Assembly (NCBI RefSeq): GCF_030845175.1
Contig: NZ_CP132542.1
Span: forward strand, 3,569,501 to 3,633,500
Source of the DNA: Coralliovum pocilloporae
Lineage (GTDB): Bacteria; Pseudomonadota; Alphaproteobacteria; Rhizobiales; Cohaesibacteraceae
Reading direction: 5' to 3'
Length of the DNA stretch: 64,000 bases
How positions within the stretch are numbered: the first letter of the stretch is position 1; each line of letters begins with the position of its first letter. The notes under the pieces were generated by a model. That model was not told the DNA's origin, did no database searches, and was given only the letters and a program-made list of their open reading frames with translations. The translations under genes were made by a program, and so were the position numbers. This document shows positions 32,678-48,299 of the stretch, one piece after another.

Positions 32678-34099
32678 TCAAGACTCAGCCATTCCCCCAA
32701 CGGGCATGGAACAGGATACGTGCTGCCGATCCTCAGGGATCGGCCAGACCACCAAATCGAGCGGCTCAGGCAATCCTGCAACACTGGCCCGCTCCCTCAC
32801 CTGGTGCGGAAGTGTGGACACATACCCCGTACGCTGAGCTTTCAGAAAACAGGCCTGGCTGGTCACAAACCGTGACCCGAGGGTTTTATTGGCATCTTCA
32901 AGCTTTGCCGTTCTGTTGACCGGATCACCAATCACCGTGAATTCCAACCTTTCCGCAACACCAACGATGCCGACCATCACCTGTCCATGATCAACGGCCA
33001 GGCCGATCGAAAAGGCTCCCGGCCAGCCCAGCTCCATGAACGAGCATTCCTCCTGCTCCATGACCTGGATAATACGCTCTGCGCAGGTGAGCGCGGCAGA
33101 AGCGCAGTGCTCCAGCTCTCCGACAGCGCCAAATGTCGCCAGAATCCCGTCACCAAGAAACTTGTCAACGCTCCCGCCCGCTTCCTCAATGATGGGCACG
33201 ACCAGTCCCTGATAACGGGCCAGAATGCGAATGGCTGTCTCTGGGGGCAAATCTGCTGAAATGCCAGTAAACCCTCGCACATCGACCAGAAGGACCGACA
33301 CGTCACGCGTTTCACCTTCACCAGCACTCAAGCCGTTTTCTGACGTGGTGATTGATCGGGCCACATCAGCTGAGAAAAACCGCTGCAGATCCCGGGCCGC
33401 TGTCTGACTACTGACAGAATTGAACAGAAGCGCCTTACCGCGTTTCAGCATCAGAGCAAGAATGATCGTGACAGCCACAATCACGGTAAGCTTGTCGATC
33501 TCCGCCCCGATCAGAATGGCATCGCTGGTGATATAATCCACATAATTCCGGGTCACCCGCATCCGGTCCATATCCGACAGGACCGCAAAGCCAAGCATGC
33601 CAACCCAGCCAATCACCGCAACCAGTCCGGTGAACAACACATAACGCGCGTCAAAGCGCAAAGACCGCAATGCGATGAACAGGAACAAATAGAGGAATGT
33701 AGGCGCTTTCAGATAGAAGGCCGGATGCTGGCCATACTGGATATGAAAGCTGAAGATAATCCCGAGGAGCAGCGAGACATCGATAAAAATCGACAGAATA
33801 ACCAGCCAATTCGGCATCAGCCGCTGATGCGCCAGAACCACTCGAACCACGGTGAACAGGAAATAGCTTCCAAGTGCGATTGGAACAAAGTTGGCCCCAA
33901 AGTCACCGCCTTCCGCGCGCGGGGCGAACAGATAAAGTGTTCCGAAAAGGGAAATGATAAGGAGTTGAATCCAGCCGATAAGAATCTCGGCAGAATCCTG
34001 CTGGTTCCTGATTTCGTTGACGACGCGCTGCGGAACATCCAGCCTCGATTGCCCCACATCAAATCCGGTCAGCGTTCTAAGTCGCTCAAGAAATGCCAT
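32678..34099 (-). CDS. Membrane-bound class III adenylate/guanylate cyclase
   Basis: Produces a cyclic nucleotide, most likely cAMP. The 473 residues have about six hydrophobic segments between residues 40 and 215 and a cytoplasmic class III catalytic domain (about 255-420). Metal-binding Asp residues are in LLVDVRGFT and KFLGDGILATFG, and the purine and transition-state region is RLEFTVIGDPVNRTAKLE. The Lys of KFLGD fits adenine recognition, though guanylate cyclases cannot be excluded. It converges with the Rieske gene, with two bases between stop codons. It lies 113 bases after the metallo-beta-lactamase-fold gene on the same strand. Confidence 0.88.
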   Translation of the reverse strand: MAFLERLRTLTGFDVGQSRLDVPQRVVNEIRNQQDSAEILIGWIQLLIISLFGTLYLFAPRAEGGDFGANFVPIALGSYFLFTVVRVVLAHQRLMPNWLVILSIFIDVSLLLGIIFSFHIQYGQHPAFYLKAPTFLYLFLFIALRSLRFDARYVLFTGLVAVIGWVGMLGFAVLSDMDRMRVTRNYVDYITSDAILIGAEIDKLTVIVAVTIILALMLKRGKALLFNSVSSQTAARDLQRFFSADVARSITTSENGLSAGEGETRDVSVLLVDVRGFTGISADLPPETAIRILARYQGLVVPIIEEAGGSVDKFLGDGILATFGAVGELEHCASAALTCAERIIQVMEQEECSFMELGWPGAFSIGLAVDHGQVMVGIVGVAERLEFTVIGDPVNRTAKLEDANKTLGSRFVTSQACFLKAQRTGYVSTLPHQVRERASVAGLPEPLDLVVWPIPEDRQHVSCSMPVGGMAES

Positions 34100-34212: not shown

Positions 34213-35052
34213 TCACGCCTCGGTGATCGACAACACCACTTCAAGACCATCATAACCAACCATGGCCCCGGGGAATCGTGCCGAGACTTCAGTTTCAAGC
34301 TTTTCCAGTGACGCATCAGAACGATACGGCGCATGGTGGAACAGGACAGGAATGCCCACGCCGCTTTCCTCTGCGAGGGACAGACAGAAGTCATCTGTCG
34401 AATGCCCCCATCCCACATGGCTCGGATAATCCGCAGACGTATACATGGCGTCATAGACCATCACATCCGCGCCCCGGACGAAATCCTTCAAGCCCTGATC
34501 AAGGCCGGTAGAGGCATGTTCAAAATCCGTAATGATCGCAACAGAACGCCCATGCCAGTCAATGCGATATCCACATCCACCACCCGGGTGATTAAGTGGA
34601 ATAGAATGCACAACGGCACTATTACTCAATGTCGTGGACGCACCCGCCTCAAAGTCGTTGAAATGCACACCCTTGAGCAGCGCTGATGTAATCGGGAACA
34701 GAGGCGGTTCCATCAGCTTGCTGACAGCGTCTTTCATGGTGACGCCATTATCCAGAACCGGCCCGTAGGCATTGACCGTTGTTTCCGGATTGAAACCGAT
34801 GCAGAAAAAAGGCAGACCGCAGAGATGGTCAAAATGATAGTGAGTGACGAAAAGGTCCATTGTCTTGAGACCCCGTCGTTCGAGGTCATGACCGAGATGC
34901 ATCATTCCCGAACCGCAATCGATGATGATTACATCATCACCGCAACTCACTTCAATACAGGCCGTATCACCACCAAACCTGCTGGTTTTTTCAGTACAGC
35001 ACGGAATCGATCCTCGCACCCCCCAGAAGCGGACCTTTACCTGATCACTCAA
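34213..35052 (-). CDS. Metallo-beta-lactamase-fold hydrolase
   Basis: Cytoplasmic metal-dependent hydrolase, 279 residues from a TTG start supported by GGAGG. The metal motif HYHFDH (71-76) is followed by other ligand candidates: NHPGGG, TDFEH and HHAPY. The opening KVRFWGVRGSIPCC and GGDTACIEV are typical of the PhnP/lactamase_B_2 group, which includes phosphodiesterases and RNase Z relatives. Its place between an adenylate cyclase and a cNMP-binding protein makes a cyclic-nucleotide phosphodiesterase an attractive but unproven role. No signal peptide. Confidence 0.8.
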   Translation of the reverse strand: MSDQVKVRFWGVRGSIPCCTEKTSRFGGDTACIEVSCGDDVIIIDCGSGMMHLGHDLERRGLKTMDLFVTHYHFDHLCGLPFFCIGFNPETTVNAYGPVLDNGVTMKDAVSKLMEPPLFPITSALLKGVHFNDFEAGASTTLSNSAVVHSIPLNHPGGGCGYRIDWHGRSVAIITDFEHASTGLDQGLKDFVRGADVMVYDAMYTSADYPSHVGWGHSTDDFCLSLAEESGVGIPVLFHHAPYRSDASLEKLETEVSARFPGAMVGYDGLEVVLSITEA

Positions 35053-35103: not shown

Positions 35104-35559
35104 TTACTCTGCCCGTTGTGATCGCAAGGCCACCAGTTCACGGTTCATACGGTCAAGCCGCTGTCCGAGAACCCGCATGACTTCCAGCGACATATCCGGG
35201 AACTCACGGAGCAATTTAAGGAAATTGTCTTTAGAAATTGCCAATGTTTCCATATCGGACGCAGCCACCACAGTGGCAGTCCTCGGCACATCACACAGGA
35301 TGGCAATCTCACCAACCACATCATTGACCGAGGCTTCGGCCACCTTAGCGGGTCCGTTCGGTGTCTCCACGACGACGTCCGCAGCACCATCCATAATGAT
35401 ATAGGCGGAATCACCATCCTCGCCCTGATCACACAGATGCTCGCCCTCGCTGAAATAAAGACGATCACTTATGAAGGCCAAAAGCTTCAGCTTTGCCGCG
35501 TCGATGCCATTGAACAACGGCACACGCTTGAGGGTTTCCACCTCACTATTCAACGTCAT
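35104..35559 (-). CDS. Single-domain cyclic-nucleotide-binding protein
   Basis: The protein is 151 residues with one cNMP-binding beta-barrel and nothing else; there is no DNA-binding domain. The phosphate-binding cassette reads GEIAILCDVPRTATV, with the Glu that contacts ribose and the Arg that contacts phosphate both kept, so binding is plausible. A C-terminal amphipathic helix (MRVLGQRLDRMNREL) could dimerise or dock to a partner. ATG 35559 has GGAGGG seven bases upstream; the longer TTG frame is less likely. It starts 47 bases after the unusual ABC protein on the same strand, and stand-alone proteins of this kind often regulate an adjacent transporter or enzyme. Confidence 0.85.
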   Translation of the reverse strand: MTLNSEVETLKRVPLFNGIDAAKLKLLAFISDRLYFSEGEHLCDQGEDGDSAYIIMDGAADVVVETPNGPAKVAEASVNDVVGEIAILCDVPRTATVVAASDMETLAISKDNFLKLLREFPDMSLEVMRVLGQRLDRMNRELVALRSQRAE

Positions 35560-35606
35560 GTCTAGACCCTCCAAAGCCTTGGCGTGATATCCCTGTTTTT
35601 GTTACA

Positions 35607-38210
35607 TTATGAAGACAGGACATCAGCGGGCACACCAGACGCCTTGATGCGACCGCCCTCCATTACAAATATGGTATCGACGCCCTGAGTCAACTCCGGA
35701 CGGTTCACCCCGAAGATAATCGTCTTGCCCTTCATCGCACCTGAAACGGTGTTGAGAACGGCTTCATCATCCCGACCGCCCTGCAGAACTTCGTCCGCGA
35801 CAATGATATCAGGCGCCTTCAGCAACGCGCGGACAAGCGCAATCTTGCGTTTCTGTCCAACCGACAATGCTCCACCCATCACACCAACATCAAAATCAAG
35901 ACCAGCCTGCATGACATACGGCTTCAGGTCATCACGCTCAATGGCTTCCGCCACAAGCTTGTTGACCGTTTCCTGACTGCCTCGGCGGTCTGCACGCGGC
36001 ATCCCGAAAATGAGATTTTCGGCAATTGAAAACGATGGGTGCACCCCGTCACGATCGAAGAAGGCAAAATCCGTCTTCTCTTCATCCGACAGGCTGTCTC
36101 GGAAAGCCTGCCTCAGGGCGACAATCCGTTCCGCGCGCTCTTCATTCATCACACCGAGACGATGACGTGCCGGGATAAGGCGGAAAGCGAGTGAAACAAA
36201 CCGACGACTGTCATCCCGCGGCATCTTCTCAACACCATCGGTTTCAGCGCGTGTCAGCAGCTGCTTGTATTCCTGCAGTTCTTCCGCCGTAACCAGATTC
36301 AGCGAATCAAGCAGGGAGCTCTCCGCATCCAGTTCCGCAAACAGTTCTGTTAGAGCTTCGGCCACCGCCATCCCGATTTCCACCAGGAAAGGCCGCGTGC
36401 CACTGGCATTCAGAAACTCACGGATCCGGGTGTTTTCAGACAGCATGCCGATGCTCATGCTGCGATCGGACGATGTGGCAAAAAACAGGTTTTCCGCCAA
36501 CGTTGCCATGGGATTGAAGGCATCCGGAACCCAGAACGCAATCTTCGAAGCAAGAACCTTGTCAGCACTGACATGATCATAGAGTCGCTGCCGGGCGGAT
36601 ACGATCTTTGCCCGAATGTCATCATCCAGATCTTCCGGGAACCGTGAGCGCAGGCCCATCTGGTAGATGTCATCGCCCAGCCCCACCTGATCCAGAAGCT
36701 CGACGGCACGAAGGTCGAGCTCACCTGATGTTTCGACACCAGCTGCGGGATAATCTTCCCAAAGCGCCTCCACCACATACTGGGTGTTCCCGGTAAGCGA
36801 TGCTTCCCTGAGCCGTTCCGCAAGATCATCCAGATCATTTGGGTCAGCAACCGGCCTGTGACGCAGGCCATATCTCAGATTGGAGCGGATGGTGCCGGAG
36901 AAAATCTGTGGCGCAACACCAATATAGGCCAGCCGCTGCCCGATAAGACTTTCCGGCATATCATCCAGCGCCAGCCCGCCAAGTGTTACTTTGCCCGAAT
37001 CCGGTGACAGAAGCCCGGACAGCATGGCCATCAGTTCTGTCCGGCCTGTGCCATCCTCACCGGAAAACGAAACCGTGCTGCCAGGTTCAATCGCAAACGA
37101 GAGCCCGTTCAGCTCCTGTCCGGCCGCATCACCCGTGTAAGAAATACTCTCGGCCTTGATCTCGCCCTTGACCGCATCGCGCATCTCGTCCGTCGGCAGA
37201 TCAGTAATCCGCTTCAGATCATAGAGGTCAGGAACATCAAAGTTCTCGATCACAGCCTGGTATTTAACCCGGACATCGGCCTGCTGCTGATAATAGGTCA
37301 GAAGCTCTTTCCAGGGGCCTGCCAGATCCTTGTAGGCTGCCAGAACGGCAACAAGCGCACCAAAACTCACATCGCCCTTGATCACCAGATAACCACCGAT
37401 GGAATAGAAGAAAAACGGTGTCAGCTGGTTGATGAAATTATTGATGAACTTGATCAGATATTTCCGGCGGAATACCGCGAACCGGATCTTGAAGTTGGCG
37501 TGCAGGCGATCAGCCAGTTCTGCCAGGTGCCACTGGGTCGTGTCATTGGCATGGATCTCGGTGATTCCCTGAACACTTTCGCCCACTCGATCTGCAATCC
37601 GGCGCACATTTTTGACACGCTCCTTGTTGAGCATGTTGACGCGCTTCTGCAGCTTCGGAATAATATAGCCCTGGATCGGATAGAAAGTGATGGCTGCAGC
37701 GCCCAGGAACGGATCCTGGACAAATATGAAGGTCAGATAGACCAGAAGCTGCCCGCCCTGAAAGGCCGGCAGAGCAACCGCATCACCGATAAAACCGCCG
37801 AGAGGTTCCACCTCTGCCGTGATCATCGGAATGATTTCACCAGAACTCAGCTTGCGGAAGCGCGGCAGACGAAACAGCAGAACACGCCGATAAAGTTCAA
37901 ACCGCAAACGGCGGAGCATACGCTCGCCCACCAGCCCCCGATAGACATTCAGGACATATTTGACAGCATTGTTGAGGACAACGAGCCCCAGAAAGGAGAA
38001 ACAGAGCGCAAGCAGATAGTCTATCTGCCCCAGCTCAAGACCAAAGAAATCACGCGGGAAATTCTCACCGGAGATCGCGTCGTTGACAATAAGCTTAGGC
38101 AGCTCAAGCGTCACATAGAGAATCGGGAAAGACAGAAGTGTAATAAGAAAAAGCGTGAGCTGTTGTCGCCTGCTGTAGCGCCAGACAAATCTGAAAAGAC
38201 TCTTTTCCAT
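35607..38210 (-). CDS. ABC exporter-like protein with degenerate, extended ATPase domain
   Basis: The 867 residues start with an ABC transporter membrane domain (about 10-320, several helices, with KLSSGEIIPMITAEVEPLGG as coupling region). The nucleotide-binding domain then departs from the norm. Walker A is GEDGTGRT, with Arg in place of the catalytic Lys. The signature is LSVGQ, where LSGGQ is usual. Walker B IIVADE is kept, but the H-loop His is Asn (FGVNRP). About 400 residues separate Walker A from the signature, against roughly 110 normally. That insertion holds two more stretches like the Q-loop region (MATLAENLFFA and SFSIAENLIFG after SGTIRSNLRYG). ATG 38210 has GGGG four bases upstream; a longer frame opens at 38246. 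Weak ATPase activity or a structural role seem possible. Confidence 0.85.
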   Translation of the reverse strand: MEKSLFRFVWRYSRRQQLTLFLITLLSFPILYVTLELPKLIVNDAISGENFPRDFFGLELGQIDYLLALCFSFLGLVVLNNAVKYVLNVYRGLVGERMLRRLRFELYRRVLLFRLPRFRKLSSGEIIPMITAEVEPLGGFIGDAVALPAFQGGQLLVYLTFIFVQDPFLGAAAITFYPIQGYIIPKLQKRVNMLNKERVKNVRRIADRVGESVQGITEIHANDTTQWHLAELADRLHANFKIRFAVFRRKYLIKFINNFINQLTPFFFYSIGGYLVIKGDVSFGALVAVLAAYKDLAGPWKELLTYYQQQADVRVKYQAVIENFDVPDLYDLKRITDLPTDEMRDAVKGEIKAESISYTGDAAGQELNGLSFAIEPGSTVSFSGEDGTGRTELMAMLSGLLSPDSGKVTLGGLALDDMPESLIGQRLAYIGVAPQIFSGTIRSNLRYGLRHRPVADPNDLDDLAERLREASLTGNTQYVVEALWEDYPAAGVETSGELDLRAVELLDQVGLGDDIYQMGLRSRFPEDLDDDIRAKIVSARQRLYDHVSADKVLASKIAFWVPDAFNPMATLAENLFFATSSDRSMSIGMLSENTRIREFLNASGTRPFLVEIGMAVAEALTELFAELDAESSLLDSLNLVTAEELQEYKQLLTRAETDGVEKMPRDDSRRFVSLAFRLIPARHRLGVMNEERAERIVALRQAFRDSLSDEEKTDFAFFDRDGVHPSFSIAENLIFGMPRADRRGSQETVNKLVAEAIERDDLKPYVMQAGLDFDVGVMGGALSVGQKRKIALVRALLKAPDIIVADEVLQGGRDDEAVLNTVSGAMKGKTIIFGVNRPELTQGVDTIFVMEGGRIKASGVPADVLSS

Positions 38211-38549
38211 AAAACCCCGATCAGTGTACGGGATGCCGTAAAACATCCCCTGCTCCGCAGATCACACTCCATCGGTAACATGGCATCTCTGGTCAAGAAC
38301 TGCAATGTCGAGCTTGCCGGACAGGCCGCCCTGCCAGTAACAGATTTTCACAAGCGTTCCGGTTCTCTAGAGGAACATTTACATTTCGTGTCCAACGTCT
38401 TACCAATAGCCAGACGTCGCGTCATTTAATGCTCTGCCTTTTGGATGAAGCGCTTCTGGTCCAAAGCAGGGCCAACCATAATAAACCTGTGCAAAGGACA
38501 GTTTACCTTACGCCTGAATAACGGTGAGCTGCCTGAGGAACGGATATTA
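38211..38549. other. Divergent intergenic region, ABC-like gene and glycosyltransferase operon
   Basis: This 339-base region should carry promoters for both directions. It contains an imperfect palindrome centred on GTTCTCTAGAGGAAC (38362-38376). The frame of the first glycosyltransferase stays open from 38445, but the ATG there has no ribosome-binding site and the extension lacks family similarity. The frame of the ABC-like gene is likewise open to 38246. I see no separate gene. Confidence 0.45.
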
Positions 38550-39743
38550 ATGTCCACCAAACCGCGCATCCTGATCTACAGTCATGACACGTTCGGGCTC
38601 GGCCATTTGAGACGATGCCGCACCATTGCCCATGCGATGGTTGAGAATGATCCGGATCTTTCTGTCCTGATCCTGTCAGGTTCTCCGATTATCGGCAGTT
38701 TCGAGTTCCGCTCACGTGTGGATTTTGTGCGCATTCCCGGTGTAATCAAGCTCCGCAACGGCGACTATACATCTCTCAATCTCTCCCTTGATATTGAGCA
38801 TACACTGGCGATCCGCAGCTCGATCATTGAACATACAGCCAAGATCTTCAAACCGGATATCTTCCTCGTTGACAAAGAGCCCACCGGGCTGCGTGGAGAG
38901 ATCAAGCCGACGCTGGAGCATCTGAAGACCACAGACACCCGTCTGATTCTCGGGCTGCGTGACGTTCTGGATGATTCAGAACAATTACAGGAAGAATGGA
39001 CGCGGAAAGGTGCCTTTGAGGCACTCAATCTTTATGACGATATCTGGGTCTACGGCCTGTCTTCCATCCATAACCCCCTCGAAGGGACCGAAGTCACACA
39101 GAGCACCTATGACAAGGTTCTTTATACAGGTTATCTGAAACGCGGGCTGATCCGCTCTTCCGTTCCTGATGAACCCGATCCGTTTGGTGGCGATCCCTTC
39201 ATTCTTGTTACACCAGGCGGTGGCGGCGATGGTGTTGAGCTGTGCGATTGGGTCATGCGGGCCTATGAAGCCCGCGAAGCGCCGCTCTATCCTGCCCTTC
39301 TGGTCCTCGGCCCATTCATGGATACCGATCATCAGTCAGAATTTGAACGTCGCGCCCAGGAGCTCCGCAATGTGAAGGTCATCCGCTTCACGCCCAACAT
39401 TGAGCTGCTGATGCAGAAGGCCATGGCGATTGTCGGCATGGGTGGATACAACATTTTCTGTGAAATCCTGTCCTTCAACAAACCGACTGTACTGGTTCCC
39501 CGTGTTGTCCCCCGCAGAGAGCAGTCCATCAGGGCCGCACGGGCCAAGGCAGCAGGTCTTGTCAATGTCCTGCCTATCGATGCCTATCCGGATGTGGAAC
39601 CCATGATCGAGGCTCTGGTTGGTCTTCCTCAACAGGCCCCCCCGCTTTCATCAGGCCTGAATGGACTGATGAACGGTCTGGATGTCATCAACCAGGAAAC
39701 AGCTCGTATTCTGGAAACCCGGCAGCAATGTGCAGCCCAGTAA
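38550..39743 (+). CDS. MurG/GT28-like glycosyltransferase (COG4671 type), first copy
   Basis: Predicted cytoplasmic GT-B glycosyltransferase, 397 residues; GAGGAA lies nine bases before the ATG. The N-terminal domain opens RILIYSHDTFGLGHLRRC, a glycine/His-rich loop typical of this group. The C-terminal donor-binding domain has TPGGGGDG, RFTPNIELLMQKAMAIVGMGGYN and a Pro-Arg-rich VPRVVPRREQSIRA region. There is no membrane segment or signal peptide. Donor and acceptor sugars cannot be read. It opens a plus-strand operon of four glycosyltransferases and a deacetylase-like protein; the fourth gene is a distant relative of this one. Confidence 0.82.
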   Translation: MSTKPRILIYSHDTFGLGHLRRCRTIAHAMVENDPDLSVLILSGSPIIGSFEFRSRVDFVRIPGVIKLRNGDYTSLNLSLDIEHTLAIRSSIIEHTAKIFKPDIFLVDKEPTGLRGEIKPTLEHLKTTDTRLILGLRDVLDDSEQLQEEWTRKGAFEALNLYDDIWVYGLSSIHNPLEGTEVTQSTYDKVLYTGYLKRGLIRSSVPDEPDPFGGDPFILVTPGGGGDGVELCDWVMRAYEAREAPLYPALLVLGPFMDTDHQSEFERRAQELRNVKVIRFTPNIELLMQKAMAIVGMGGYNIFCEILSFNKPTVLVPRVVPRREQSIRAARAKAAGLVNVLPIDAYPDVEPMIEALVGLPQQAPPLSSGLNGLMNGLDVINQETARILETRQQCAAQ

Positions 39744-39798
39744 CATCGTTTGGCAACCTGGTCCGCCTCAGAAGAATTCCAATCGAAAGCAAGACGCT

Positions 39799-41055
39799 AT
39801 GAAACGTATCGCAGTTGTGGTCAAAGGCTACCCCCGCCTGTCGGAAACCTTTATCGCACAGGAATTGCTGGGCCTTGAGCAACGCGGTTTCAAGCTGCTT
39901 ATCGTCTCGCTTCGTCATCCCACGGACCCTGCAATCCATGACCTTCACCGGGAAATCAAGGCGGATGTGCTCTATTTGCCTGAATATCTGAAAGATGATC
40001 CGAAGCGGGTCCGCGCTGCACGCAAATGGGCTGAGGCACAGCCGGGCTACAAGGCACTCGAGAAGGTTTTTCAAGAGGATCTGTCACGGGATAAGACAGC
40101 CAACCGCTGGCGTCGGCTGGGTCAGGCCTGTGTTCTTGCTCATGAATTGCCCGAAGATATCGAATGGATATACACCCATTTCCTTCATACGCCCTGTTCT
40201 GTGGGGCGTTATGCGGCCATGCTACGCGGTATGCAATGGTCCTTCGCCGCTCATGCCAAGGATATCTGGACATCCCCCGAATGGGAACTCAGGGAAAAAA
40301 TACAGGACTGTGCCTGGGGCGTAACCTGCACCCAGGTCAATACGGACTACCTCAACAGCCTTGCTGATCGCCCGGACAAGGTGGAACTTGTCTATCACGG
40401 GCTGGAACTGGATCGCTTTCCCGACCCTAACATCCGCCCACAGAAGAACGCGGCAGACACGAATGAGCCCTTCCGCATCCTGTCTGTTGGTCGTGCCGTG
40501 GAGAAAAAGGGATATGACGACCTGCTCCGGGCGCTTGCAAAGCTGCCGGGAAACCTCAACTGGCATTTCGACCATATCGGCGGTGGTGCACTGAAGGACA
40601 AGCTTAAAGCGCAGGCTGAGAAACTGGGTATCGATCAGAACATCACCTGGCATGGCTCGAAAGACAGAGACTTCGTTATCGATTCCTGCAGACAGGCGGA
40701 CCTGTTTGTTCTGCCAAGCAGGATCATAAAAAACGGCGACAGGGACGGCCTTCCCAATGTTCTGATGGAAGCTCAGGCCGTCGGGCTCTGCTGTCTGTCC
40801 ACATCTGTGTCGGCTATTCCGGAACTCATCATTGATGGAGAGACAGGCAGGCTCTGCCCGGAGCGGGATTCGAAAGCTCTGGCCGAGACGATGGAAGAGC
40901 TGATGACCGACCCCAAGATCCGCATCCGTCTTGGCCTAGCCGGGTCCGCGCGCCTGAGACAATCCTTTGCCTCAACACCCAACCTGGATCGTCTGACACA
41001 GAAGTTCGAAGCAAGTCTGGCGGAGGTCCGAAATGGCAGGCTGAAATCGGCCTGA
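39799..41055 (+). CDS. GT4-family glycosyltransferase
   Basis: GT-B fold enzyme, 418 residues from ATG 39799. The N-terminal domain starts MKRIAVVVKGYPRLSETFI, a form common in exopolysaccharide and lipopolysaccharide glycosyltransferases. The C-terminal domain has the GT4 pattern: ILSVGRAVEKKGYDDLLRAL, ITWHGS, and an E-x7-E-like region LPSRIIKNGDRDGLPNVLMEAQAVGL, followed by IPELIIDGETGRL. The open frame begins earlier (39682) inside the preceding gene, but the chosen Met starts the conserved fold. It begins 55 bases after the first gene. Probably cytoplasmic, working on a lipid-linked or nucleotide-sugar-fed acceptor. Confidence 0.85.
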   Translation: MKRIAVVVKGYPRLSETFIAQELLGLEQRGFKLLIVSLRHPTDPAIHDLHREIKADVLYLPEYLKDDPKRVRAARKWAEAQPGYKALEKVFQEDLSRDKTANRWRRLGQACVLAHELPEDIEWIYTHFLHTPCSVGRYAAMLRGMQWSFAAHAKDIWTSPEWELREKIQDCAWGVTCTQVNTDYLNSLADRPDKVELVYHGLELDRFPDPNIRPQKNAADTNEPFRILSVGRAVEKKGYDDLLRALAKLPGNLNWHFDHIGGGALKDKLKAQAEKLGIDQNITWHGSKDRDFVIDSCRQADLFVLPSRIIKNGDRDGLPNVLMEAQAVGLCCLSTSVSAIPELIIDGETGRLCPERDSKALAETMEELMTDPKIRIRLGLAGSARLRQSFASTPNLDRLTQKFEASLAEVRNGRLKSA

Positions 41056-41109
41056 GTTCGGTCTGAGTTCGGCCCGACCCCAGCATGACGCAAACCCGGA
41101 AGACAGGCC

Positions 41110-42195
41110 ATGCGCGCCGCATTCTATGCTCCACTCAAACCGCTTGATCACCCGCAGCCATCCGGCGACAGGGAAATCGGACGGCTAATCAAAAGAGCCC
41201 TGACAGATAACGGTGTTGATGTGGAGATTGCCTCCCGCCTGCGAAGCTGGATGCGCTCCCCCGACACAGAACAATATCGGCCCCTGAAAAATGAAGCCAC
41301 GCGGGAGGCATCAGGCCTTATAGAGCGCTGGCGACCCTCACCGCCGGATGTCTGGGTAACCTACCATCTCTATCACAAGGCACCGGACTGGATTGGCCCA
41401 GCAGTATCAAAGGCGCTCGGCATTCCCTATGTTGCGATAGAAGCCAGCCGATCATTGAAACGTCAGAACGATGGCTGGGCTCAATGGTTCGAAGATGCTG
41501 ATATCGGCATCCATCATGCAGATACCCTAATCTGTTTTCACGACAAGGATCTGAATGGCCTGAAAACAGCTGTGCCAGCATCTCGCCTGCACAAAATTGC
41601 TCCGTTCATCGATACAGAACTGTATAGGCCGCGGACGCGGAAACCAGGGACATCCCGATCAATTCACCTCATCACCGTGGCCATGATGCGCGAGGGAGAC
41701 AAGGCGGCCTCCTATCGCTGTCTGGCAGAAGCTCTTGCGTCCCTCCAGGATCTGGACTGGTCTCTGACCATTATCGGCGACGGCCCGGCTCGTGCCAATC
41801 TGGAGCCCCTTTTTCCGAAAGGTCGTTGCCAGTTTCTGGGCGCCCGCTCGCCCGAAGACATCCCCGATCTCTTGCGTCAGGCAGATCTGTTCATCTGGCC
41901 TGCAATCAATGAGGCATTTGGCATGGTCTTTCTGGAAGCTCAGGCCGCAGGGCTCCCTGTTCTTGCAGGCCGGACGGGAGGCGTGCCGGATATTGTCCGA
42001 GACGGAGAGACCGGTTTTCTATCCGCTGTCGGTGATGCAGATGCACTTGCAGCCAATCTGCGAAAACTGATCAGTGAGCCTGACACCCGCAACAGGCTGT
42101 CACACAATGCCATAGATCATATCGAGGATAATCACAGTCTGGCGACCACCGGCCGCACCCTCGCCGACTGCATCAAAGGGAGTGCCTCTGTCTGA
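41110..42195 (+). CDS. GT4-family glycosyltransferase, second
   Basis: 361-residue GT-B enzyme. The N-terminal half is divergent (MRAAFYAPLKPLDHPQPSGDREIGR). The C-terminal half has clear GT4 features: ITVAMMREGDKAASY, LTIIGDGPARANLEPLF, CQFLGARSPEDIPDLL, and the catalytic-region Glu pair in WPAINEAFGMVFLEAQAAGLPV, then GGVPDIVRDGETGFL. Its stop overlaps the next start by one base (TGATG), so the two are translated together. It follows the preceding glycosyltransferase after 54 bases. Sugar specificity unknown. Confidence 0.85.
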   Translation: MRAAFYAPLKPLDHPQPSGDREIGRLIKRALTDNGVDVEIASRLRSWMRSPDTEQYRPLKNEATREASGLIERWRPSPPDVWVTYHLYHKAPDWIGPAVSKALGIPYVAIEASRSLKRQNDGWAQWFEDADIGIHHADTLICFHDKDLNGLKTAVPASRLHKIAPFIDTELYRPRTRKPGTSRSIHLITVAMMREGDKAASYRCLAEALASLQDLDWSLTIIGDGPARANLEPLFPKGRCQFLGARSPEDIPDLLRQADLFIWPAINEAFGMVFLEAQAAGLPVLAGRTGGVPDIVRDGETGFLSAVGDADALAANLRKLISEPDTRNRLSHNAIDHIEDNHSLATTGRTLADCIKGSASV

Positions 42196-43355
42196 TGCGC
42201 GTCTATATCCATGTTCAGCATCTGCTCGGCACCGGCCATGTGGTCCGGGCTGCCGCTCTCGGTCGCGCTCTTGTGGAGGCAGGGTGCCAAGTCCGCCTTG
42301 CGTCGGGAAATACAATTCCGCCAACAGTGGATCTGACTGGTCTGGATGTTTATCTACTGCCTAAAGCCCGCAGCGCCGATGCCCATTTTTCGGCCATTCT
42401 GGACGAAAATGATGACCCGATTTCCGAGGATTGGAAAGCCGCACGGAAGGACAATCTCCGGTCTGATGTCCTTGCCTTTCAGCCTGACATTCTCCTGACT
42501 GAGACTTTTCCATTCGGACGTAGGGCTTTCCGTTTCGAGCTTCTCCCCCTGCTTGAAGAACTCAATGCGCAAGCAAATCCTCCGCTGATCGCCGCCTCAA
42601 TCCGCGATATCCTCGTGCGCAAGGATGATCCCAAAAAAGAACGCGGTATGGCAGAGCTGTTTCTCAAGCACTATGATCTGCTGCTTGTGCATAGCGATCC
42701 AGCCTTTACACGGCTCGAAGACAGCTTTGCAGCAACAGATCTGATCTCCGACAAACTCGCCTATACAGGCTATATTCACGGAGCTTCCTCCATACCAGCC
42801 CGAAACGAAGACGGCTCGGATGAAATCCTCATTTCCTGTGGTGGTGGTGCCGTCGGTCTCAATCTCCTGAAGACAGCACTGGTTGCCAGACAGCATTCAA
42901 AGGCAGCCTGCGACAAGACATGGCGCCTGCTGGTCGGCAAGGATATCCTGGACGCTGATCTTGCGGCCCTGCGAACCGATGCTCATGAAGGACTGATCGT
43001 TGAACGCGCGCGCCCTGACTTCCCCGCCTTGCTACACCGGGTTGCCCTGTCGGTCAGCCAGACCGGTTACAACACAGCCCTCGATATTCTGGCGGCGGGA
43101 TGCCGCGCGCTTTTCATTCCGTTTGCAACAGGTGATGAAACCGAGCAGACACAGCGGGCGGAAGCGCTTTGTGCCCGGGGCTTCAGCCATCTGTTGCCTG
43201 AGACCTCGCTGACGCCGGTCACCCTGGCATCGGCCATCGACAAGGCTCTTGCCGCACCGGTGAAAAAGGCCCATCTGGATACCAATGGCTCTGAGAAGAG
43301 TGCCGAGATCCTGATCCGTGCCAGAGAAAACCAGCGCATCCAAGCAAAAGGCTGA
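42195..43355 (+). CDS. MurG/GT28-like glycosyltransferase (COG4671 type), second copy
   Basis: 386 residues with the same kind of opening as the first gene of the operon (MRVYIHVQHLLGTGHVVRAAAL), a donor-binding stretch EILISCGGGAVG, and a late region PALLHRVALSVSQTGYNTALDILAAGC followed by FIPFATGDETEQTQRAEAL. The pattern fits predicted GT-B enzymes related to MurG. Identity to the first copy looks low, so the operon has two distinct members of this group. The start overlaps the preceding stop; the deacetylase-like gene follows eight bases after its stop. Confidence 0.82.
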   Translation: MRVYIHVQHLLGTGHVVRAAALGRALVEAGCQVRLASGNTIPPTVDLTGLDVYLLPKARSADAHFSAILDENDDPISEDWKAARKDNLRSDVLAFQPDILLTETFPFGRRAFRFELLPLLEELNAQANPPLIAASIRDILVRKDDPKKERGMAELFLKHYDLLLVHSDPAFTRLEDSFAATDLISDKLAYTGYIHGASSIPARNEDGSDEILISCGGGAVGLNLLKTALVARQHSKAACDKTWRLLVGKDILDADLAALRTDAHEGLIVERARPDFPALLHRVALSVSQTGYNTALDILAAGCRALFIPFATGDETEQTQRAEALCARGFSHLLPETSLTPVTLASAIDKALAAPVKKAHLDTNGSEKSAEILIRARENQRIQAKG

Positions 43356-43363
43356 CCAACCGA

Positions 43364-44125
43364 ATGACTGACCAAGTGACCAGCCGCCAAGCCTTTGAAT
43401 CATTATTGTCAGACCTGCTCAACAGAGCAAATCATCCCATAATTCTTTGGTGGCGGGATGATGATGCCATCGAAGATACGGATACTCTTCAAACCATGTT
43501 GGCCCTGCAGGAACGGCACGCGGTTCCTCTGGGTCTCGCAGTTATTCCAAAGACAGCGACCCAATCACTGGTCGACAGTATAAGAGACAGAAATCAGGTC
43601 ACGGTTCTCCAGCATGGCTGGCAGCATGTGAACCACGCGCCCATTACCGAGAAGAAACGGGAACTGGGCCTGCACCGCGGGCTGGACGCAGCCATCAGCG
43701 ATCTGCACGAGGGCAAGAGCCGGCTCAGCAGGATGTTCGGTGATCAGTTCGCCCCTATCCTGACACCGCCATGGAACAGAATTTCAGAAGAGGTCGTGCA
43801 AGCCGCAGAAAGTACTGTCGGTCTTCCAGGCCTCACCACGTTCAACAAGGCACCCCCTCACAAGCCCCATCAATGCAACACCCATGTGGACATCATTGAC
43901 TGGCGGGGATCCCGTGGCTTTGTCGGCTGGCAGGCACTAGCAGATATCATGACGCGTGAGATTGAGGATCGGATGGTTTCAGGTTCTGACGAGCCGATCG
44001 GCATCCTGTCCCACCATCTGGTGCATGATGACGGATGCTGGCAGGCGCTGGATGCAATTTTCTCTGTCGCCCGGAGGCACGGTACTGTCAGCTTCCCCGA
44101 TATCCCAACACTCTTCCAGCTCTGA
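43364..44125 (+). CDS. Polysaccharide deacetylase-like protein (NodB-fold)
   Basis: 253 residues, predicted cytoplasmic: there is no signal peptide or membrane helix. The metal-binding and catalytic start appears as LWWRDDDA (Asp pair), with a His motif HGWQHVNHAP and a later ILTPPWNRIS. The terminal region carries HHLVHDDGCW. This layout suits the COG3233-like branch of the carbohydrate esterase 4 / NodB fold, which may remove N-acetyl groups from glycans. It ends the glycosyltransferase operon. Its stop is three bases from the converging permease gene. Cytoplasmic location suggests action on an intermediate before export. Confidence 0.8.
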   Translation: MTDQVTSRQAFESLLSDLLNRANHPIILWWRDDDAIEDTDTLQTMLALQERHAVPLGLAVIPKTATQSLVDSIRDRNQVTVLQHGWQHVNHAPITEKKRELGLHRGLDAAISDLHEGKSRLSRMFGDQFAPILTPPWNRISEEVVQAAESTVGLPGLTTFNKAPPHKPHQCNTHVDIIDWRGSRGFVGWQALADIMTREIEDRMVSGSDEPIGILSHHLVHDDGCWQALDAIFSVARRHGTVSFPDIPTLFQL

Positions 44126-44128
44126 AGC

Positions 44129-45295
44129 CTACTTGTATGGGTCTGCTGCGTCCCGCAATCCGTCACCGAGGAAGTTGAAGGCAAGCACCACAATGATGAC
44201 CGGGATAACCGGTGCCATCAGCCACGGATAGATGGTCACAACCGTCAGATTCTGGGCTTCATTCAACAGAACGCCCCAGCTCACAGCCGGACGCCGCAGG
44301 CCGAGATCAAGGAAAGACAGGGCCGTTTCCCCAAGGATCATGCTTGGAATGGACAGCGTCACACTGGCAATCACATGGCTGGCAAAACCAGGCAGCAAAT
44401 GCTTGCGGATAACGCGACCGGGCTTGGCACCCATCAGCACCGCAGCTTTCGCATATTCCTCTTCCCGCAAGGCCAGCAGCTTTGACCGGACCGCCCGGGC
44501 AAGGCCCGGCCAGTCGAGCAGCCCCAGAATAACGGTGATGCCGAAATAGATCTTGATCGGGCTCCAAGTCACAGGAAGCGCTGCAGACAAAGCCATCCAC
44601 AAGGGCAGCTCGGGCAAGGATCTCAGAATTTCGATCATCCGCTGAACGGCAGAATCAATCAGGCCACCGAAGTAACCTGCAATCCCGCCAAAGAACAGAC
44701 CCAGCACCAGGCCAATGGTCACCCCGACAAGGCCGATGGTCAAAGACAGACGCGCACCATAGACGATGCCGGACAGGAGATCCCGTCCAAGGCGATCTGT
44801 TCCGAGCAGATAGAGCGTTCCCCCTTCCGCCGGGCACATCAGGTGGAAGCTGGCATCAAACAATCCCCAGAAGGAATAGGTATCCCCCTGGCAGAAAAAA
44901 CGGATCGGATAGACCTTGGTCCGGTCTTCCACATAGTTCCATTTCAGAATCTCAAGGTCCACCGTACCGCGGGTGCCATAGACAAAGGGACCGACAAAAT
45001 CCCCGTCATGGAACAGGTGAATAGCCTGTGGCGGCGCATAGAGGTTTTCGTTGTCCCGCGTATTGGCTTCATAAGGTGCAATCACCTCGGCAAACGGAAC
45101 TGTCAGGTAGAGAAAGAACAAGACAACAGCAGACCAGACAGCCAGTTTGTGGCGCTTGAGCTTCCACCACATAATCTGCCATTGCGACGCGCTGTAATAC
45201 CGCTCCTGCTCCTCTGTCAGCGCTTCAATGGAATGCGCGTCAAATGGAGCCGGATTGACGTAATGTGCCGAACGTTCGCGATTGTCTTCTGTCAT
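44129..45295 (-). CDS. Oligopeptide/oligosaccharide ABC transporter permease (OppC type)
   Basis: Inner-membrane permease, 388 residues. ATG 45295 has AAGG eight bases upstream and avoids a 40-base overlap with the upstream gene; the frame is open to 45346. One membrane helix (LAVWSAVVLFFLYLTVPF) is followed by a periplasmic loop of about 110 residues, longer than in E. coli OppC, then five helices. The EAA loop is in EEEYAKAAVLMGAKPGRVIRKHLLPG. LGTDRLGRDLLSGIVYGARLSL is the standard dipeptide-permease motif. It is the last gene of the ATPase-SBP-permease-permease operon. Confidence 0.92.
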   Translation of the reverse strand: MTEDNRERSAHYVNPAPFDAHSIEALTEEQERYYSASQWQIMWWKLKRHKLAVWSAVVLFFLYLTVPFAEVIAPYEANTRDNENLYAPPQAIHLFHDGDFVGPFVYGTRGTVDLEILKWNYVEDRTKVYPIRFFCQGDTYSFWGLFDASFHLMCPAEGGTLYLLGTDRLGRDLLSGIVYGARLSLTIGLVGVTIGLVLGLFFGGIAGYFGGLIDSAVQRMIEILRSLPELPLWMALSAALPVTWSPIKIYFGITVILGLLDWPGLARAVRSKLLALREEEYAKAAVLMGAKPGRVIRKHLLPGFASHVIASVTLSIPSMILGETALSFLDLGLRRPAVSWGVLLNEAQNLTVVTIYPWLMAPVIPVIIVVLAFNFLGDGLRDAADPYK

Positions 45296-45305
45296 ACGTA
45301 TTACC

Positions 45306-46331
45306 TTATCGCGCAGCCTCGGCACCCAGACGGATGCGTGGATCAAGAACAGCCAGCAGAAGATCGGAAATCAGCATCCCGATCAGGGTCAGAACAGCCA
45401 CAAACAAGAGAATGAACCCGGCAAGGAACTGATCCTGAGATTGCAAGGCTGTCAACAGGATGGGCCCGACCGTGGGCAGGTTCAGCACCACAGATACAAT
45501 CACAGAACCGGACACCAGGGACGGGATCAGGTTGCCGATATCAGCAACAAATGGATTGAGCGCCATCCGCAAAGGATATTTGAACAGAAGCTTGCCATTC
45601 GACAACCCCTTGGCCTTGCCTGTTTCCACATATTGCTTGTGAAGTTCATCCAGCAGGTTCGCCCGCAGACGACGGATCATACCTGCGGTCCCTGATGTGC
45701 CGATAACGATCGTTGGAATAATCAGATGCAGCAGAATGGACTTGAACTTGTCGAACGACATGGGCTGGTCGATATATTTCGGATCCATCAGGCCACCGAC
45801 AGACAGACCAAAATATCGGTTGGATATGTAAAGCAACACCAGTCCAAGCAGGAAGTTCGGTGTCGCCAGCCCCAGATAGCCAATCAGCGTGAACCCGTGA
45901 TCCCCCCAGCTGTACTGGCGGGTTGCGGAGTAAATGCCGATTGGAAAGGACATGATGTAAACAAACAGGATGGTCGCGAAATTAAGCACCACCGTCAGGA
46001 TCAATGTGGACCCGACAACATCGAGAACCGGCTGGTCAAACTCAAACGACCAGCCGAAATTACCCTGCAGGAGCCCGGAGAATCCGTTGGGTCCTGGCCA
46101 GGCTCCAATCCAGATCAGGTAACGTTCAAAAAACGGCCGATCGAGCGCAAATTCCTTTTTCAGAAACTCGATCTTCGCAATACTGGCTTCCTCACCCTGA
46201 GCCCGGAGCTGCGCAATCTGGTTGCTCAGATAATCACCAGGCGGCAGTTCGATAATCAGAAATGTCAGAAAGCTGATCACCAGCAAAGTGGGGACCATGG
46301 TCAGTATGCGACGGCCGATATAGATCCACAT
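45306..46331 (-). CDS. Oligopeptide/oligosaccharide ABC transporter permease (OppB type)
   Basis: 341-residue inner-membrane permease. The opening MWIYIGRRILTMVPTLLVISFLTFLIIELPPGDYL is typical of OppB/DppB. An extended periplasmic segment holds a charged stretch (RAQGEEASIAKIEFLKKEFA) before helices 2-6. The EAA loop is in ELHKQYVETGKAKGLSNGKLLFKYPLRMALNPF. Gap of nine bases from the binding-protein gene and ten to the second permease, so all are co-translated. Forms the heteromeric channel with the OppC-type partner. Confidence 0.93.
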   Translation of the reverse strand: MWIYIGRRILTMVPTLLVISFLTFLIIELPPGDYLSNQIAQLRAQGEEASIAKIEFLKKEFALDRPFFERYLIWIGAWPGPNGFSGLLQGNFGWSFEFDQPVLDVVGSTLILTVVLNFATILFVYIMSFPIGIYSATRQYSWGDHGFTLIGYLGLATPNFLLGLVLLYISNRYFGLSVGGLMDPKYIDQPMSFDKFKSILLHLIIPTIVIGTSGTAGMIRRLRANLLDELHKQYVETGKAKGLSNGKLLFKYPLRMALNPFVADIGNLIPSLVSGSVIVSVVLNLPTVGPILLTALQSQDQFLAGFILLFVAVLTLIGMLISDLLLAVLDPRIRLGAEAAR

Positions 46332-46340
46332 AGAGTTACC

Positions 46341-48299
46341 TTATTGCCGGACGTCGTCGGCCAACACTTCAAGTGCGCCTTCAAGCCAGAATTCATCCAT
46401 TCGATGCAATCCGAAATGTGCCCCCGGATCCCAACCATAAATCCCTTCCACAGGGACGTTCTTTAGCCGGTTGGACGCAACGACAGGCTGTCTGACAAGA
46501 CTGACCAGACCAATCGAAAACGTATTCTCGGCATGTATTTCAAGAATGTCATGCCAGATCCGCATGCGCATTTCATCACCGGTCGCCAGTTTCCACTCTT
46601 TATAGAGCTCGACCAGCTTCACAGCTTCTTCCAGATCCGGCTTTTCACCACGTGTTCCGTGGCTTTCAAAATACTCGCCCCAACGCGGCCAGTAGAGCGC
46701 TTCACTGGAGATCGGAACCAGTTCGCCCGGATCAGACGCCGGCGTCGGAATACCATTGTCATAGCCGGACCAGACCGACATCACCAACTGACCAGAGAAC
46801 GCCCTGTCCCGCATGACATCTCTCTGGGATGGCTTGGCAAAAAGCTTGACACCGATATCCCGCCAGGTCTCGCCGATCAGAGCCAGAATATCGATCTGCT
46901 CCTTGCTCTCGCCTGCTGTCTCCACAATGATTTCAAGCGGTTCGCCATTTGGCAAAAGACGGATTCCATCGCCGCGCCGTTTGTCCAGACCCATTTCATC
47001 CAGAAGCCTGTTGGCGGTTTCTTTGTCATAACGGGCCCAGCGGTCGCGATAGTCATCCTTGTAGAGCGGGCTCTGCGGCAGAACCGTATTGTTTGATTCC
47101 GTGGCAAGGCCGAAGAAAAGCAGCTGATTGATCATTCTCCGGTCGATACCCAGAGACAATGCATGCCGGAAGCGTTTGTCACGTACCAGCTCGCGCCACA
47201 CAGGATTAGACGTGGTCAGATTGGGATAGAGGGCAATATGAGCGCCCTTTGCGATCGGCCACAGTCGGGTCTTGTATTTGTGCTGCGCCTCACCGGACTT
47301 GAGCACAGTGACATCAGAAAACGCCAGGCTCCTTGCCTGCAAGTCCACCTCACCAGCCTGGGACTTTGTCGCAATCAACCGACCATCAGCAACCGTCATG
47401 ATGACTTTGTCGACATAGGGAAGCTGCCGACCCTTGGTATCAACACGGTGATAATAGGGGTTCCGGATCATCACGAACCGACGGCTTTTCTTGCCGCTTG
47501 TGGTGATCCAGGGCTGCAGGCTCGGCAGGTCAGGATTGATAGCGCGATACATCCGGTCCAGATTGTGATGGACAGCTGTCCACTTGCTGGATTTTTTCTC
47601 TTTCACCAGCTTGGCAATATAGTCCGGATCTCCATAGTTGATATGGAACTGCTTTAGATAGTGCGCAGGTCTGTAGATAAATGGCGGGCGTGCCTGCGCC
47701 AGAGTCTGCAGGAAGACCGGATTTGGCTTTGACCAGGAATACCGCACACTTTTCGGCGACAGCACTTCAAACGTTGCCACTTCACCATCAACCCGCAGGA
47801 AGGATTCAGGTCCCGGAGGCGTCAACTCTTTGTTGTTGACGATGTCTTCCCAATAATACCGGAAATCCTCAGCCGTGAACGGATGTCCATCAGACCATTT
47901 ATGGCCCTCGCGCAAATGAAGCGTAAAGATACGCCCCTCTTCCACCTCGACGTCCTTGAGAATATCCGGCTTGAGATTGAGTGCCTCGTCATAACCGACC
48001 AGTCTGGCATAACCCCAGACATTGATCAGGCGTGCATCCTTCGATTTGGGGATCAGCGTACGGATATCACCGCCATGCTTTCCGGCTGACCGGCCACGTC
48101 GGGACAGATCAACCACCATGGGCTCGGACGGCACCCGTTCTTCAACACCGGGCAGTTTCGCAGTGTCATGCGTCCTGGATAATGTGGGTGTTTCCTGCAG
48201 CTCCACCGCATAGGCAGCAGCAGAAAGCCCCGCCAATAATCCAACAGCCCCCAAAAGTCTTGAGGGCAGAGCAAAAAGCGAACGTATAGGGACCATCAT
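46341..48299 (-). CDS. Family 5 extracellular solute-binding protein
   Basis: Periplasmic binding protein, 652 residues, longer than the usual 500-550 of OppA/DppA. A signal peptide ends near AAAYA. The SBP_bac_5 fold is indicated by LREGHKWSDGHPFTAEDFRYYWE, SYSWSKPNPVF-type strands and RHALSLGIDRRMINQLLF. The large size resembles alphaproteobacterial importers for peptides or oligosaccharides (YejA- or AgpA-like); the ligand cannot be told. Its first codons overlap the stop of the ATPase gene (ATGA), an unusual order in which the ATPase gene comes first. Confidence 0.9.
   Translation of the reverse strand: MMVPIRSLFALPSRLLGAVGLLAGLSAAAYAVELQETPTLSRTHDTAKLPGVEERVPSEPMVVDLSRRGRSAGKHGGDIRTLIPKSKDARLINVWGYARLVGYDEALNLKPDILKDVEVEEGRIFTLHLREGHKWSDGHPFTAEDFRYYWEDIVNNKELTPPGPESFLRVDGEVATFEVLSPKSVRYSWSKPNPVFLQTLAQARPPFIYRPAHYLKQFHINYGDPDYIAKLVKEKKSSKWTAVHHNLDRMYRAINPDLPSLQPWITTSGKKSRRFVMIRNPYYHRVDTKGRQLPYVDKVIMTVADGRLIATKSQAGEVDLQARSLAFSDVTVLKSGEAQHKYKTRLWPIAKGAHIALYPNLTTSNPVWRELVRDKRFRHALSLGIDRRMINQLLFFGLATESNNTVLPQSPLYKDDYRDRWARYDKETANRLLDEMGLDKRRGDGIRLLPNGEPLEIIVETAGESKEQIDILALIGETWRDIGVKLFAKPSQRDVMRDRAFSGQLVMSVWSGYDNGIPTPASDPGELVPISSEALYWPRWGEYFESHGTRGEKPDLEEAVKLVELYKEWKLATGDEMRMRIWHDILEIHAENTFSIGLVSLVRQPVVASNRLKNVPVEGIYGWDPGAHFGLHRMDEFWLEGALEVLADDVRQ

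Follow-up and report, generated by a model that had tools for sequence, protein, structure and literature searches.

What becomes of an ATP-binding cassette (ABC) exporter once its ATPase domain has lost the marks of a motor? The question is raised by a gene in a 64,000-nucleotide stretch of the Coralliovum pocilloporae genome (contig NZ_CP132542.1, positions 3,569,501–3,633,500; called the window here), which encodes an ABC-exporter-like protein of 879 residues from the first ATG in an open frame (35607–38246). Features of the window between 32678 and 52201 lie on the reverse strand unless stated otherwise. Comparison with relatives revealed that the canonical catalytic motif set is lost family-wide from the ATPase domain, and that the protein co-occurs almost constantly with a cyclic-nucleotide-binding domain, which is sometimes fused to it. 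Judging from the sequences, we give a probability of about 50% to the following reading: this is a conserved alphaproteobacterial family derived from ABC exporters, in which the ATPase domain of a transporter or gate no longer hydrolyses ATP and works instead as a coupling module under the control of cyclic nucleotides.

The first-pass annotation of this DNA placed the gene at 35607–38210, which is the same frame begun at Met13 (867 residues). Met13, at 38210, is probably the true start, because the alignment of most homologues begins near it. Residue numbers in this text follow the 879-residue frame and equal those of the first-pass annotation plus 12. The membrane domain comprises residues 13–337 (37236–38210), as delimited by Pfam and conservation, and its ABC_membrane match (PF00664, E=1.2e-17) spans residues 77–302; this part is ordinary, as described, and of the ABC exporter type. 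The ABC_tran match (PF00005, E=3.6e-18) is split over two stretches, and a profile search of solved structures agrees on the homology.

Loss of the canonical ATPase motifs

The three altered landmarks reported by the first-pass annotation are present in the protein. The Walker A-like motif reads GEDGTGRT (residues 396–403, 37038–37061), with Arg402 replacing Lys. The signature is LSVGQ (residues 794–798, 35853–35867), and the switch region is GVNRP (residues 846–850, 35697–35711), with Asn848 replacing His. The Walker B motif IIVADE (residues 814–819, 35790–35807), about which that annotation was silent, has its Asp-Glu pair intact. We take V444 to be the true Q-loop Gln position, from an alignment to the canonical LFxGTIRENL pattern; Gln447 is for this reason not counted as the Q-loop Gln. 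Among the five canonical motifs that we scored (GK[ST], Q-loop Gln, LSGGQ, Walker B DE, and switch His), the window protein meets only Walker B.

The distance between Walker A and the signature, estimated earlier at about 400 residues, measures 398. In the same genome we compared seven exporter loci; five, chosen by motif pattern and used as a control for spacing only, have a distance of 104–109. The remaining two are L007, which has GASGSGKT, and L002 (G000:C1:2234332-2235129), an exporter-like frame of 607 residues that matches neither the Walker A-like nor the signature pattern.

Motifs were counted across 147 distinct full-length sequences, namely the window protein and 146 relatives. The relatives derive from 177 loci, which gave 167 full-length frames, and 21 duplicates sharing an identical 200-residue stretch were taken out. 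Ten partial or membrane-only loci (nine membrane-only and L102) were set aside, and the partial locus L043 was left out. The sample leans towards the best-scoring matches, and the matches of the class sample were fetched in part.

No member has all five canonical motifs together. The Walker A Lys position is occupied by Lys in 77 sequences, Arg in 50, Ala in 14, and other residues in six, and the full GK[ST] motif is found in 8/147. The Q-loop Gln, counted at column 444, is present in 24/147 (Gln at 446/447: 7/147). LSGGQ occurs in none of the 147 full-length members, Walker B DE in nine, and the switch His in 41. Counted per member, 83 sequences have none of the five motifs, 47 have one, 16 have two, one (L013) has three, and none has more than three. 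The spacing between Walker A and the signature is enlarged in every member, ranging from 374 to 473 residues. On a tree of the membrane domain, at least 21 changes are needed between Lys and non-Lys, 20 between His and non-His, and 22 between Walker B Glu and other residues.

The exact combination of Arg, Val, and Asn is confined to 3/147 sequences, the window protein and two relatives from the same taxonomic family (L009 and L010, each 71% identical). As a set, the three substitutions singled out by the first-pass annotation are therefore not conserved among homologues, many of which carry the ordinary Lys or His at the respective site. No homologue restores the full motif set, however, and the gene carries no frameshift.

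Repeated units within the ATPase domain

An insertion of about 250 residues (residues 470–720, 36087–36839) lies between Walker A and the signature. That of the window protein matched no Pfam family at E<=0.1, and the insertions of other members gave scattered weak matches in 1–3 of 36, the best being 7e-4 for DUF6854 in one member. Among solved structures there was no credible match (two at E<=1, the best at 0.086). These searches led us to reject a known domain as its source. In a search for stand-alone copies, a profile of the insertion alone found matches in 131/385 alphaproteobacterial genomes; among the matches listed, most are in frames of at least 860 residues and about ten are in shorter frames.

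Three related units can be recognized in and around the insertion. Unit 1 is a Q-loop-like strand and the start of a helix, QRLAYIGVAPQIFSGTIRSNLRYGLR (residues 437–462, 36861–36938). Unit 2 carries the repeat motif NPMATLAENLFF (residues 566–592, 36471–36551), with the near-invariant Asn586. It is preceded by a helix containing IVSARQRL (residues 541–566, 36549–36626) with the near-invariant Arg552, and this helix is repeated ahead of unit 3 as IVALRQAF (residues 701–726, 36069–36146) with the near-invariant Arg712. Unit 3, HPSFSIAENLIFG (residues 724–750, 35997–36077), has the near-invariant Asn744 and Gly748 and continues to the signature. These five residues are conserved at >=0.99, as is Trp496 of the insertion; His695 and Arg696, also in the insertion, reach 0.93 and 0.95. 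In units 2 and 3 an E/D-N-L/I-x-F-G motif comes after a strand-like stretch, and unit 1 has a similar dNLxyG; an AR-containing helix precedes units 2 and 3.

The first-pass annotation had suspected a repeated helical subdomain, and profile-profile comparison supports this at the profile level. We scanned 1225 pairs of non-overlapping 60-column alignment windows. The best 45 of the 1225 pairs (scores 28–86) all fall among the three units and the helices that flank them. By comparison, the top score was 15.4 between the membrane domain and the ATPase domain and 18.5 within the membrane domain. On these scores the apparent repetition exceeds chance. Units 2 and 3 match each other with profile E-values of 3e-13 and 3e-14. 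The link to unit 1 is weaker, at 3.5e-8 with unit 2 and 1.2e-4 with unit 3. In the profile alignment, residues ~542–600 pair with ~706–760, and both pair with the Q-loop region at ~429–475. As unit 1 lies at about the normal distance after Walker A and unit 3 leads into the signature like an ordinary Q-loop/helical region, it appears that two extra units were inserted. The repetition does not come with a confident structure: the predictions have a predicted local distance difference test score (pLDDT) of 41 for the full length and 52 for the ATPase part. A Foldseek search with the model of the ATPase part retrieved ABC ATPase domains, the top match having E 3.2e-5 across 94 columns; we take this as consistent with the assignment.

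A cyclic-nucleotide-binding partner

Directly downstream of the transporter gene in the window is a gene for a cyclic-nucleotide-binding protein (35104–35574; PF00027, E=1.4e-18), whose phosphate-binding cassette reads GEIAILCDVPRTATV. Across the 146 relatives, the cyclic-nucleotide-binding domain is fused at the C terminus in 13 and is encoded by a separate frame on the same strand in 124; none was found for nine. Distances were measured from where the transporter frame ends to the start of the matched part of the separate gene. They range from −14 to +606 bases in all but one of the 124 cases (123/124), the exception being L190, on a short contig, at −413. Fusion is explained by three changes on the tree (14 labels, as L091 is a shorter locus of the gene of the fused L119). 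The cassette has Glu in 127/138 and Arg in 133/138 sequences, residues that contact the ligand. The partner thus retains its ligand-binding residues, whereas the ATPase domain has lost its own.

The NCBIfam model TIGR03896 (cyc_nuc_ocin, "bacteriocin-type transport-associated protein") resembles this arrangement, by name only, as a cyclic-nucleotide module tied to transport genes. The window protein scores 33 bits against it, versus a cut-off of 161 bits.

Selection and membrane-only relatives

Every domain is under purifying selection in the pairs tested. The ratio of nonsynonymous to synonymous substitution rates (dN/dS) lies at 0.01–0.38 in all 48 comparisons (12 relative pairs and four domains, among them the insertion and each half of the ATPase domain); the 12 non-overlapping pairs were drawn from 30 in a chosen identity range and are all made up of relatives of the window protein. 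Conservation in >=93% of the 147 sequences is seen at 84 columns, 58 of which are in the membrane domain, 22 at residues 437–799, and four elsewhere in the ATPase domain. Three of the 22 sit at the signature (Gly788, Gly791, and Leu794).

Nine homologues with frames of 336–425 residues stop after the membrane domain and have no ATPase domain. They share 30–49 of the 58 most conserved membrane-domain residues. Their two intracellular loop regions measure 41–46 and 57–68 residues, in contrast to exactly 48 and 70 residues in all 147 full-length members. Because the loop lengths are fixed wherever the eroded domain is present, the comparison suggests that this domain is still mechanically coupled to the membrane part. 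The membrane-only homologues form two groups in the tree, in which the outgroup branches are very long, and they may have a single origin. The divergent locus L102 (49–2637) has a membrane domain just under the Pfam cut-off and outside the query match, and its units are recognizable; the membrane part and the repeat part can therefore diverge separately.

The membrane-only homologues are sometimes found in copper clusters (L131 8078–13128 and L220 4017–9079). The L131 cluster encodes CopB, a multicopper oxidase, PCuAC, and a cupredoxin, and a Phaeobacter plasmid with a membrane-only homologue carries a copper oxidase, plastocyanin, and c-type cytochromes. L130 and L131 have an additional N-terminal hydrophobic stretch with His residues.

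Gene neighbourhood

Downstream of the cyclic-nucleotide-binding gene, the window encodes a metallo-beta-lactamase-fold hydrolase (34213–35052; PF12706) and a class III nucleotidyl cyclase whose N-terminal part is hydrophobic (32678–34099; PF00211, E=1.7e-8). On the forward strand, a divergent cluster (38445–44125) comprises four glycosyltransferases and a protein whose L106 relative has a weak deacetylase match. Beyond it, again on the reverse strand, are an oligopeptide-type ABC importer (44129–50188) with two permeases, an SBP_bac_5 binding protein, and a double ATPase, and a second class III cyclase (50330–52201) that matches HAMP and, weakly, dCache. A polysaccharide lyase-like protein (PF14099, 52255–53220) adjoins the second cyclase and occurs in 1/38 neighbourhoods.

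The hydrolase is a weak but possible candidate for a cyclic-nucleotide phosphodiesterase: its match to NF041851 falls far short of that model's threshold and is outscored by RNase Z models. It is possible that the two class III cyclases, the hydrolase, and the cyclic-nucleotide-binding protein form a circuit in the window that makes, senses, and degrades the nucleotide.

We examined 38 neighbourhoods (37 of 20 kb and one of 15 kb) by tblastn with proteins of the window or of the cluster, a procedure in which related genes may cross-match. The cyclic-nucleotide-binding gene was found in 36/38. Two GT4 glycosyltransferases were present in 28/38 each, two GT28-like ones in 27/38 and 25/38, and a deacetylase-like protein and a histidine phosphatase in 23/38 each. 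The double ATPase of the oligopeptide importer was matched in 29/38, its permeases in three each, and its binding protein in five, all within the stretch. Three control genes from the window were matched in none of the 38. Relatives of the double ATPase (48296–50188 in the window) adjoin the transporter gene in the same 29/38. A conserved cluster protein of about 176 residues (L109 1782–2312) occurs in 18/38, and its L111 relative has no Pfam match at E<=0.01.

A proposed coupling module in place of a motor

In the proposed mechanism, the dimeric membrane domain would still switch conformation. The enlarged ATPase-derived domain, no longer hydrolysing ATP, would serve as a rigid or nucleotide-sensing coupling module on which the cyclic-nucleotide-binding subunit docks. 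The coupling loops, which are retained, would transmit the binding of cAMP or cGMP to the membrane part and so open or close it. Transport might then proceed passively, be driven by ions, or consist of a gated flip of the substrate. As a best guess, and only a guess, the substrate could be a glycan or glycolipid that the neighbouring glycosyltransferases produce. Motion driven by ATP is what defines ABC transporters; our observations suggest that here a pump or gate has been rewired, with a cell signal in the place of ATP, and the family, if the reading is true, would show such a rewiring of a primary pump.

Several observations weigh against this proposal. Lys or Arg is kept at Walker A in 127/147 members, the first Gly in 129/147, the signature Gln in 127/147, and the Walker B Glu in 73/147. 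Five members unite Walker A Lys, Q-loop Gln, Walker B Glu, and switch His, and the window protein itself retains the Walker B Asp-Glu. The low-confidence structure predictions show neither the arrangement of the repeats nor docking of the cyclic-nucleotide-binding subunit. For the nine relatives that lack a partner in the fetched stretch, contig or stretch ends are perhaps the reason in some cases. Cyclases are present in only 9/38 neighbourhoods and the hydrolase in 5/38. Glycosyltransferases are absent from 10/38, including those of the closest relatives (L104 and L105), in which the cyclase, hydrolase, cyclic-nucleotide-binding gene, and transporter remain together; for this reason the link to cyclic nucleotides is tighter than that to glycans.

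The main rival is slow or binding-only ATP use. The protein would be a true but unusual ATPase that hydrolyses slowly and still acts as a primary exporter, with the repeats as a regulatory add-on. The retained residues listed above, together with Gly401 (134/147), leave room for ATP binding, or for hydrolysis at a low rate in some members, and the loop regions of one length in all full-length members are in keeping with it. Known exporters also tolerate one degenerate site (PMC7756269). The same paper describes TM287/288 and ABCC1 as keeping one consensus ATP site, whereas here one gene would supply both sites of a homodimer. The frequent exchange of Lys on the tree and the family-wide counts for LSGGQ, the Q-loop Gln, Walker B DE, and the switch His also speak against this rival, which we consider rather unlikely. 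The earlier suggestion that the protein is inactive, slow, or uses ATP in a different way, perhaps as a gated scaffold, fits the family-wide loss of the motif set and fits less well with the homologues that have Lys or His.

It is improbable that the protein transports nothing and is purely a signalling or scaffold membrane protein through which cyclic nucleotide levels act on the glycosyltransferases or the peptide importer. The association with cyclic-nucleotide-binding domains and the presence of both gene groups among the neighbours would accord with such a role. The concentration of the most conserved columns in the membrane domain (58/84) and the persistence of membrane-only homologues fit transport better, although this is an argument only.

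The protein could also be the degenerate half of a heterodimer in which a canonical half-exporter provides one consensus ATP site. Such pairs are known among exporters (PMC7756269), but a pattern scan restricted to the neighbourhoods found a canonical exporter-like open reading frame at 1 of 42 loci (L120), and the membrane-only homologues do without any ATPase domain; we hold this to be quite improbable. A decaying pseudogene or sequencing artefact, which three altered landmarks in a single gene might have indicated, was rejected in view of the open frame, the layout shared with two relatives of 71% identity, the low dN/dS in the four domains of the 12 relative pairs, and matches in 130/385 genomes.

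Comparison with known transporters

With type IV ABC exporters (MsbA, P-glycoprotein, and their kin), the family shares the PF00664 membrane domain, the order of the ATPase motifs, and intracellular loops of constant length. Unlike them, it has no member with a canonical motif set, contains repeated Q-loop/helical units and a Walker A–signature distance near 400 residues, and has a cyclic-nucleotide-binding partner. The exporters with one degenerate site (TM287/288, TAP, MRP1, and CFTR) have likewise lost catalytic residues from an ATPase domain that is structurally needed. TAP, MRP1, and CFTR keep one consensus nucleotide site, whereas a homodimer of the present protein would have both sites degenerate.

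The SLiPT transporters (SbmA/BacA) also have an ABC-exporter-type membrane domain, and the membrane-only homologues described here resemble them in having no ATPase domain and shorter loops. The full-length members differ in keeping the eroded ATPase domain and full-length loops. The two are different families: the window protein did not match PF05992 (SbmA_BacA) at E<=0.001, and one of the nine membrane-only homologues reached E=0.023, which is under the cut-off. The conserved Glu145 and Glu147 were considered as an SbmA-like proton ladder; the idea was dropped because ordinary exporters carry acidic residues at these positions. For SbmA-type transporters, loss of the ATPase domain and of the coupling helices has been proposed (PMC13316013); loss of the ATP drive is published for SbmA and only inferred here. 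The present family might represent another path to the motorless pump state known from SbmA/BacA, one whose intermediates are still alive.

The open-access literature that we searched, judged by titles and abstract openings, held no description of the family. A more far-reaching reading, which we hold to be less likely than not, is that it belongs to a large class undescribed in that literature: cyclic-nucleotide-gated membrane transporters or flippases in which an exporter ATPase has turned into a repeat-built, non-hydrolysing coupling module, and in which the membrane-only step was taken independently of SbmA/BacA.

Distribution

Matches at E<=1e-40 were found in 130 of the 385 alphaproteobacterial genomes of the class sample, a number that includes the window's own genome and some fragmentary or membrane-only matches. 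The sample of the taxonomic family gave matches in 3/20 genomes, the window's own counted, and the phylum sample in 29/398 at E<=1e-30. There were 344 matching plasmid or chromid records, 261 of which have a single place covering >=80% of the query. Among the replicon matches listed, the full-length ones are mostly from Rhizobium, Sinorhizobium, and Azospirillum, and those on roseobacter plasmids are mostly membrane-domain-only. The annotated records examined name these proteins as ABC transporter transmembrane domain-containing or ATP-binding proteins, so that transporter predictions drawn from record names may be wrong.

No relative was confirmed in viral contigs. A Bacillota match (L072) proved to be an ordinary exporter and was rejected as a member; matches in Chryseobacterium, Kaistella, and similar genera (20–33% identity) were assumed to be ordinary exporters and kept out of the member set. 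One relative (L044) comes from a metagenome-assembled genome assigned to Granulosicoccaceae, a gammaproteobacterial family.

Two genomes of the window's own taxonomic family (G004 and G016) hold two copies each, an orthologue with 71% identity and a paralogue with 33–34%. The orthologue is adjoined by the cyclase, hydrolase, and cyclic-nucleotide-binding genes, with no glycosyltransferases in the stretch, and the paralogue of G016 lies inside a glycosyltransferase/peptide-importer cluster.

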